This document shows, in pieces, positions 1 through 11,243 of a stretch of 64,000 nucleotides of DNA. The stretch comes from Turneriella sp. (GTDB taxonomy: Bacteria; Spirochaetota; Leptospiria; Turneriellales; Turneriellaceae): contig JABARV010000005.1 in assembly GCA_019186965.1 (NCBI GenBank), positions 1 through 64,000 of the forward strand. Direction: 5' to 3'. How positions within the stretch are numbered: the stretch's first letter is position 1; the number at the start of each line of letters is the position of its first letter. The position numbers and the translations under genes were made by a program. The notes beneath the pieces are model-generated. The model was not told where the DNA came from. It did no database searches and saw only the letters and a list, made by a program, of their open reading frames with translations.

Positions 1-32
1 TCCAAAAATTTCGGCTGTTTTTTGCATTTCAT
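1..32 (-). CDS. 5' end of a gene leaving the window
   Basis: Only the first codons are visible. An AGGAGG ribosome-binding site (45-40) lies 7 nt before an ATG at 32-30; a second in-frame-independent ATG at 27-25 lies 12 nt after it. The first reads MKCKKQPKFL, the second MQKTAEIFG. The second resembles the start of the gene at 10659 (MQKITAIEF), whose promoter is nearly identical to this gene's, so the two may be paralogues. No function can be given from so short a fragment. Confidence 0.5.
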   Translation of the reverse strand, partial: MKCKKQPKFL

Positions 33-80: not shown

Positions 81-123
81 GCCCCTATATATTAAATACC
101 AGAAAACACGTAAATTTTCTCAC
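81..123 (-). promoter_or_regulatory. Promoter with AGAAAA-N8-TTTTCT dyad, copy 1
   Basis: On the minus strand -35 TTTACG (114-109) and -10 TATATA (91-86) are 17 bp apart. The -35 sits inside a perfect inverted repeat, AGAAAA (120-115), 8 bp, TTTTCT (106-101). The same module, including the 19-base string TTTTCTGGTATTTAATATA and a following GGGC, recurs at 10581-10623 on the plus strand. It drives the gene that starts at about 32. That the dyad is an operator is inference from its position. Confidence 0.65.
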
Positions 124-10471: not shown

Positions 10472-10531
10472 TTTCTTAGTTAAGAAAAGCTAATTTTATT
10501 TAAGATTTATACTATTTCTTAGTTAAGAAAA
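10472..10531. repeat. Two copies of a TTTCTTAGTTAAGAAA palindrome
   Basis: The 17-mer TTTCTTAGTTAAGAAAA occurs at 10472-10488 and 10515-10531, identical, with starts 43 bp apart (about four helical turns). Each is an inverted repeat, TTTCTTA and TAAGAAA around GT. The second extends outward to ACTAT...ATAGT. They lie between the divergent genes ending at 10416 (minus) and starting at 10659 (plus), next to a minus-strand -10. These are probable operators for a dimeric repressor or activator. Confidence 0.65.
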
Positions 10532-10580
10532 TAGTCTAAAAAGTATAAACCGATATTTTTTTCAAAAAAAATTCAAAAAA

Positions 10581-10623
10581 TGAGAAAATTTAAACATTTT
10601 CTGGTATTTAATATATAGAGGGC
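10581..10623 (+). promoter_or_regulatory. Promoter with AGAAAA-N8-TTTTCT dyad, copy 2
   Basis: -35 TTTAAA (10589-10594), 17 bp, -10 TATATA (10612-10617). The perfect inverted repeat AGAAAA (10583-10588) and TTTTCT (10597-10602) surrounds the -35. Aligned with the minus-strand copy at 123-81, only the 4 bases in the middle of the dyad and one inserted A before GGGC differ. It would start a transcript at about 10624, 35 nt before ATG 10659. Confidence 0.65.
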
Positions 10624-10658
10624 TACTTCCTACATGGAATACCTCCAAATAAGGTATT

Positions 10659-11243
10659 ATGCAAAAAATTACAGCAATAGAATTTCACAAGTCATCTGTT
10701 TCTCTTTCGAAATTAGCACGAAGGCGTATAAAAATATGCCAACAAATTTTACTGCGGCATGGAATTTTTTTGACCGATGGCGAAGTATATGAACGGATCT
10801 TGAAACTTTACCTTAATAATTGGGCAGGGCACGGCAAAAAGAGCGCAACCGCACGGCGTTATAATAAAGAGGGCAAAGGGTATAAAATTTGTTCGCTTTA
10901 TATCAACAAAATCCTGTATTCGGCGGTTTGGGAACGCGCTATCCATTCGGGAGAGTCGGTATCGCGTATTCTCGACGTGGCGATACGCGTGTACATGGCG
11001 CGCATGTTGGAGATGCTGCTTTCAAGACGTGTAAGTCCGTTCCAGCGCGAGAGGAATATACGTTATTGGGGTATGCGTCTTGCGCGACGCACAAAACAAT
11101 ATCCTGACTTTTTTCTTAGTTACGAATGTAGAACGGAAACAAATAATTTTTGTACACTAAAATACCAACAAATTACGGAGTTAATCAGCGTAGATGGCCT
11201 ACCACCTTCGCAAATCGAAGAACTTTCCTCGATTGCCGCGTAG
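10659..11243 (+). CDS. Unrecognised protein, possible double ribbon-helix-helix regulator
   Basis: 194 aa, strongly basic in its first two thirds. Two segments share a pattern: a short strand followed by two helices (about 12-50, with RIKICQQILLRHGIFLTDG, and about 75-112, with YSAVWERAIHSGESVSRILD then VAIRVYMARM). This order of strand, helix, G/E turn, helix is what CopG/Arc-type ribbon-helix-helix proteins show, so one chain may mimic a dimer. I do not recognise the family and the fold is inference. Its promoter carries a dyad copied upstream of the gene at the left window edge, and both genes may start MQK. Self-regulation through the dyad is plausible. Confidence 0.55.
   Translation: MQKITAIEFHKSSVSLSKLARRRIKICQQILLRHGIFLTDGEVYERILKLYLNNWAGHGKKSATARRYNKEGKGYKICSLYINKILYSAVWERAIHSGESVSRILDVAIRVYMARMLEMLLSRRVSPFQRERNIRYWGMRLARRTKQYPDFFLSYECRTETNNFCTLKYQQITELISVDGLPPSQIEELSSIAA

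Follow-up and report, generated by a model that had tools for sequence, protein, structure and literature searches.

In streptococci, the ComX/SigX late competence regulon places recA, ssb, dprA and further genes of recombination, at scattered loci, behind one special promoter, the CIN box (TACGAATA). Of the genes that concern us here, comM and dprA have their role in transformation and do not belong to the usual SOS genes. In Pasteurellaceae, the Sxy/CRP-S competence regulon includes comM, ssb, and dprA (PMC5809987), and in Leptospira interrogans recA is under the control of LexA (PMC3789691). At the protein level, TraY carries both of its ribbon-helix-helix units in one chain and is present in three copies in the relaxosome complex of the F plasmid (PMC12117103). 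In the literature searched, we came across no study of competence or of how it is controlled in either Turneriella or Leptospira, nor any on natural transformation of the species analysed here.

We have analysed a window of 64 kb, i.e., the whole stretch at the start of contig C5 in a Turneriella genome (G000; 3.08 Mb, 27 contigs, 99% complete). An earlier note on this DNA had described a duplicated stretch with four central differences and one insertion, and both copies have been confirmed. The pattern TGAGAAAA-N8-TTTTCTGGTATTTAATATATAG is matched exactly at 122-85 (minus) and 10581-10618 (plus), and no match is found in 100 shuffled versions of the window. Between the left and the right copy the N8 centre differs at four bases (TTTACGTG and TTTAAACA, respectively), and GGGGC in the former stands against GAGGGC in the latter. 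The profile scores of the two window sites are 54 and 57, as compared with -9 for the best background of the window. The features are as follows.

1 to 32, minus strand: first codons (MKCKKQPKFLE...) of a family-A gene, which the contig end truncates at base 1
85 to 122, minus strand: left promoter module, with the box TGAGAAAA at 122-115, the box TTTTCTGGTATTT at 106-94 and the ATATATAG start region; an exact match and one of the 36 genomic sites
164-185 and 199-220: left pair of tandem palindromes, TAGCTATGGAATTTCATAGCTA and TAGCGCCGGATTTCCATAGCTA as read on the minus strand, 5' of the left module
10472-10487 and 10515-10530: right palindromes, TTTCTTAGTTAAGAAA twice, 43 bp apart, 5' of the right module
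10553 to 10572, plus strand: T/A tract that precedes the -35-like box; at about this distance the site set has a conserved T run (profile -16 to -12)
10581 to 10588, plus strand: box TGAGAAAA, proposed -35; across the 80 non-redundant sites each position holds 1.2-1.8 bits
10597 to 10609, plus strand: box TTTTCTGGTATTT, proposed extended -10; GGTATTT has 1.4-1.8 bits per position, and the distance to the first box is constant at 36 of 36 genomic sites
10610 to 10623, plus strand: AATATATAGAGGGC, predicted transcription start; TATAG and AGAGGG conserved
10659 to 11243, plus strand: gene of family C, whose product of 194 aa is predicted to be a tandem ribbon-helix-helix protein with TraY-like fold (AlphaFold model, Foldseek)

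The tandem palindromes that had been noticed 5' of each module are thus present. The suggestion that both downstream proteins may begin with MQK is true of the right-hand protein only. On the left, translation from the ATG at 32 (minus) gives MKCKKQPKFLE, in the frame that all 21 family-A proteins keep, and the apparent MQK comes from a second ATG at 27 in a different frame. The sequence of this start continues identically into a 178-aa ORF at two other loci (L002 and L014). Contigs C5 and C13 start at the identical base of the family-A repeat, which shows that the window begins on the left where the assembly broke at a repeat. Contig ends inside repeated family-A, -B or -C genes are also seen more widely, namely at the starts of C5 and C13 and at the ends of C18, C20, C22, C23, and C25.

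At the genome level, the module (TGAGAAAA-N8-TTTTCTGGTATTTAATATATAGAGG) occurs 36 times, two of them in the window. The earlier idea of a paralogous locus in several copies therefore holds, and the contrary case, in which there would be just two copies in front of unrelated genes, fails. When the second half, TTTTCTGGTATTTAATATA, is searched alone in the whole genome, 36 sites are obtained at no more than two mismatches, with 4 more at three; with AGAAAA-N8 added in front, the search yields 22 + 14 = 36 sites, and the reversed two-box pattern yields none. As both searches give 36, the distance to the upstream box is invariant. The site is also found in all other Turneriella genomes searched, i.e., T. 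parva (G007), G008, G009, G010, G011, and G012, where those of G009 represent a variant with GGTATTTC or GGTATTTA, and in one further genus of the family (G006). The remaining genomes of the family, order and class that were searched have no site, except for one copy in G037, and all exact matches among named genome contigs belong to leptospiral or spirochaete metagenome assemblies. The single copy in G037, which is from another family and otherwise without the promoter, has an IS91-type transposase behind the exact Turneriella promoter (L113, G037:C1:1178600-1181100); it seems that an IS91-type element carries the promoter across families.

The profile of the 80 non-redundant sites consists of a T tract, N9-10, TGAGAAAA, N7-8, and tTTTcTGGTATTTaataTATAGAGGG; a few of its rows are out of register or match by chance, and the later counts use the 73 sites that were kept. 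Conservation is concentrated in the blocks TGAGAAAA and TTTYTGGTATTT, positioned like a -35 and a -10. The view that the conservation exceeds promoter hexamers and reflects a shared regulator is supported. The -10 TATATA that had been proposed finds no support in the profile. Nor does AGAAAA-N8-TTTTCT behave as the dyad of a regulator. Arm complementarity is observed in 357 of 438 cells of the 73 sites, against 355.2 +/- 2.0 in shuffles, the C of the right arm is kept in little over half, and at sites that keep the G of the left arm this C is often T or G. The dyad as an operator has thus been rejected, for its arms do not compensate and symmetry is absent. A start at TATAG would put TGAGAAAA roughly at -36 to -29 and GGTATTT roughly at -14 to -8. 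AGAGG would then serve as the ribosome-binding site of genes with a nearby ATG, as in family B, in which the ATG comes a few nucleotides after the AGAGG region.

For G000, the genes behind the promoter are recA, two ssb, comM, dprA, an exported protein of 313 aa, two IS91-family transposases, and four families, A to D, of small paralogues with ~26 copies between them. At nearly every locus a start codon follows ~20-90 nt past the site. In T. parva the orthologues of recA, both ssb, comM, and the exported protein carry the promoter, and in G009 those of recA, both ssb, and comM. Overall, comM is behind the promoter in six genomes (G000, G006, G007, G009, G010, and G012), and promoter-bearing ssb and recA are further found in G008 and G010, and in G011, respectively. 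Families A to D also lie behind the promoter in other species, and dprA does so in G000 only. The flanks of the orthologous promoter loci are unrelated between species. The loci with the promoter in other species are listed below.

recA: L107, L115, L240
ssb: L105, L110, L124, L126, L148, L235, L236
comM: L109, L234
exported protein: L108, L117, L122

Five of the eleven distinct targets belong to the recombination set, for which the chance is ~1e-7 to 1e-9 if the set is assumed to have 15-40 genes among 3000 in total. On the other hand, comEC has no site in G000, G007 or G009, where the gene is directly behind ftsZ, so the regulon is one of DNA handling and not of DNA uptake.

Several further loci deserve mention. 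The exported protein of ~300 aa (L052, L108, L117, and L122) is kept behind the promoter in four species, and that of G000 matched no Pfam family. At L148 in G010, a family-B gene begins ~480 bp past the site, directly after ssb. At L243 in G009, a weak site precedes a frame of 99 aa that has the look of a membrane helix plus coiled coil and might be RmuC-like. In G043, from another family of the order, comM is preceded by TGAAAAAAACACCCCCCTTTTGGTATTATAGGG, with similar boxes and a spacer one base shorter (L258).

We have also searched for the regulator. There are 12 sigma-family matches in G000, and none of them has a site at its own locus, which is a point against the alternative-sigma reading given below. 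The DNA-binding domain of LexA was not found in G000, G006, G010 or G012, several of these assemblies being incomplete, and a LexA-like protein is present in T. parva and G009, whose recA still carries the module. LexA was rejected as the regulator, as it was not found in G000, G010, and G012 and yet the site is there. A WYL regulator was likewise rejected, since no WYL-domain protein was found in G000.

The small proteins fall into four families.

Family A: MKCRKQP..., 178 aa
Family B: MLKTSISLP..., 141 aa
Family C: MQKITAIEF..., 194 aa, to which the gene at 10659 belongs
Family D: 116 aa

For family C we have observed 10 proteins behind the promoter in five genomes. The AlphaFold models of families C and A have a mean pLDDT of 81 and 77, respectively, and each shows two beta-alpha-alpha units (E9-17 H18-33 H40-53 and E75-83 H84-97 H101-122 in family C; E17-26 H27-40 H44-56 and E84-92 H95-105 H110-125 in family A). 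According to these models, families A and C are predicted tandem ribbon-helix-helix proteins; families B and D were judged from their sequences. In the Foldseek search, chains of F-plasmid relaxosome entries take ranks 1-9 for family C and 1-11 for family A, with probabilities of 0.96-1.00 and best E values of 0.008 and 0.036, respectively. These top chains have the length of TraY, and we read them as TraY, the rows identifying entries by title alone. The alignment of the two window proteins, which had been proposed as a check of their relationship, gave a divided answer: BLAST returns no alignment between them, and their families A and C share the same modelled fold. By profile comparison, families B and C are related (97% probability), and the relation between A and C is weak (42%).

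Pfam, NCBIfam, and PHROGs contain no family that matches the small proteins above cut-off. Family B reaches 18.5 bits with DUF1564 (PF07600), under the curated cut-off of 25, and also matches NikA-like and ribbon-helix-helix models weakly; the Turneriella genomes have no DUF1564 match. In the PDB sequence search nothing was found for families A and C, and family B gave Arc (E 0.14) and ParG (E 0.96). No relative turned up in plasmid and viral collections for family A, or in a phage collection for family C.

In G000, each of three families has its own palindrome, i.e., CATAGCTATG for A, GGGGATAACTATCCC for B, and TTTCTTAGTTAAGAAA for C. A TAGCTATG-type palindrome is located 5' of 13 of the 14 family-A sites (background 0.002 per 200 nt), a GRTAACTA-type one 5' of all nine family-B sites (background 0.016 per 200 nt), and a TTCTTAGTTAAGAA-type one 5' of both family-C copies. 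L020, the other copy of the family-C unit, retains the second palindrome and has one similar to the first. In other species, the A-type palindrome is found at 6 of 15 family-A sites and also at one B and one C site.

The repeated units, composed of tandem palindromes, promoter and gene, have sharp ends. Homology between family-A copies stops at the TAA stop codon, give or take chance matches. For several family-B copies it stops at the stop codon or a few bases beyond, some extend by 7-18 bases, and the copy at L045 is cut shorter. Beyond these ends the sequences are unrelated, and many copies are near-identical. Since the homology ends at the stop codon, the family-A and -B units look mobile. 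Moreover, ~85 bp of the left end of family B precedes comM (78/86 identical) and a family-D gene (72/85 identical) in G000, where two tandem copies of TTATGTCACAT..GGGGATAACTATCCC lie upstream at both loci (L009 and L011, respectively), and at L048 this left end occurs without a gene. No family-B left end was seen before comM or the family-D gene in the other species checked. Families A and B thus look like mobile units, with exchange between promoters. By eye, no target-site duplication is evident in the unit flanks. One may go further and regard the units as a new type of small mobile element without its own transposase, which would carry the host recombination promoter and move via a single-strand state, perhaps with the promoter-sharing IS91-type (HUH) transposase; bearing this promoter, a unit would be expressed when single-stranded DNA is handled. 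We consider this extension unlikely.

Based on the above analyses, we hold with moderate confidence that a single Turneriella regulon has the module as its promoter. In it, putative alternative-sigma boxes would govern a single-stranded-DNA recombination set, with transformation as the likeliest use, and TraY-like proteins would bind palindromes of their own. As far as sequence can tell, promoter and targets point to an undescribed gene-exchange programme. The boxes TGAGAAAA and GGTATTT would be the -35 and -10 of an alternative sigma factor and, being shared, would allow one signal to switch on the cell's single-stranded-DNA recombination set, most likely for natural transformation, that is, for integrating imported strands. 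The tandem ribbon-helix-helix proteins would bind the palindromes 5' of their own genes and may be regulators or DNA-processing partners of the programme.

It is possible, though in our opinion doubtful, that no special sigma factor is involved and that an activator or repressor site lies on an ordinary RpoD promoter whose -10 is extended (TGG-TATTTA). TGGTATTTA indeed resembles an extended -10 and the -35 is poor, and the conserved block, which spans from the T tract to the start site, is longer than most sigma motifs. However, the boxes show neither symmetry nor arm covariation, the two blocks are spaced and placed like -35 and -10, and neither LexA nor a WYL regulator was found in G000. The regulon itself might instead be an SOS-like response to DNA damage that replaces LexA in this lineage, which we can entertain only tentatively: recA and two ssb are among the targets, but comM and dprA are not usual SOS genes. 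As such a replacement would have it, LexA was not found in G000, which is 99% complete, or in two relatives with less complete assemblies. A LexA-like protein is present in T. parva and G009, however, and their recA carries the module all the same. In favour of a damage response, recA of Leptospira interrogans is under LexA (PMC3789691).

The mobility of the units offers another account, in which the promoter was spread mainly by mobile units and recA, ssb, comM, and dprA received it by chance insertion or recombination. The sharp-ended family-A and -B units with their many near-identical copies, the ~85 bp of family-B left end at comM and the family-D gene of G000, and the IS91-type copy with the exact promoter in the otherwise promoter-free G037 all speak for it. 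Nevertheless, the recA, ssb, and comM promoters exist in several species, mostly without unit sequence 5' of them, and chance does not account for five recombination genes, which makes this account improbable. A dispersed repeat without promoter role, as might be supposed from the 36 copies and from the contigs that end at many of them, is hardly credible at all. A start codon lies ~20-90 nt ahead at nearly every locus, and orthologues elsewhere have the site within unrelated flanks; this relation of the sites to genes refutes it.

If the module is indeed the promoter of a recombination regulon, a defined recA/ssb/comM promoter in T. parva, the cultured type species, makes the control of recombination directly testable. 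Large families of small proteins without a name would also gain their first functional context, and so, perhaps, would the DUF1564 families of Leptospiria. For the latter, many DUF1564 genes of G037, from another family, share a TTTTTTACCTTATA promoter element. Its 31 exact matches in this genome mostly belong to DUF1564 genes or fragments, and one of them is located 31 nt 5' of the ATG of comM. Because the reversed control gives 9 matches, the element shared by DUF1564 genes and comM is a lead and not a proof. In the same genome, TTTTTTACCTT 5' of the start codon is common to comM and multi-copy DUF1564 genes (L288, L279-L308).

Among the described systems, the ComX/SigX regulon resembles the present one in that a special promoter is common to recA, ssb, and dprA at scattered loci, which in Turneriella is seen by sequence only. 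The Turneriella motif, however, is unrelated to the CIN box, comEC is outside the regulon, dozens of small-protein genes are inside it, and the host is a spirochaete. With the Sxy/CRP-S regulon, Turneriella has comM, ssb, and dprA in common as targets. CRP-S is a symmetric CRP site of 22 bp that covers uptake genes (rec-2, comA-F, and pilA), while in Turneriella the two boxes are asymmetric and the targets include no gene for uptake. The LexA/SOS system of Leptospira likewise controls recA (PMC3789691), but it works with LexA and a TTTGN5CAAA dyad, whereas G000 has a different motif and no LexA was found in it. The small proteins are reminiscent of the DUF1564 proteins of Leptospiria, which are also small and multi-copy and which family B matches below cut-off. 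For the models of families A and C, the top match in structure is TraY, with two ribbon-helix-helix units per chain. The proteins differ from it by C-terminal extensions, no sequence similarity to it was found, and no relaxase or oriT was seen at the loci examined; the targets lack a relaxase, though they include an IS91-type transposase.
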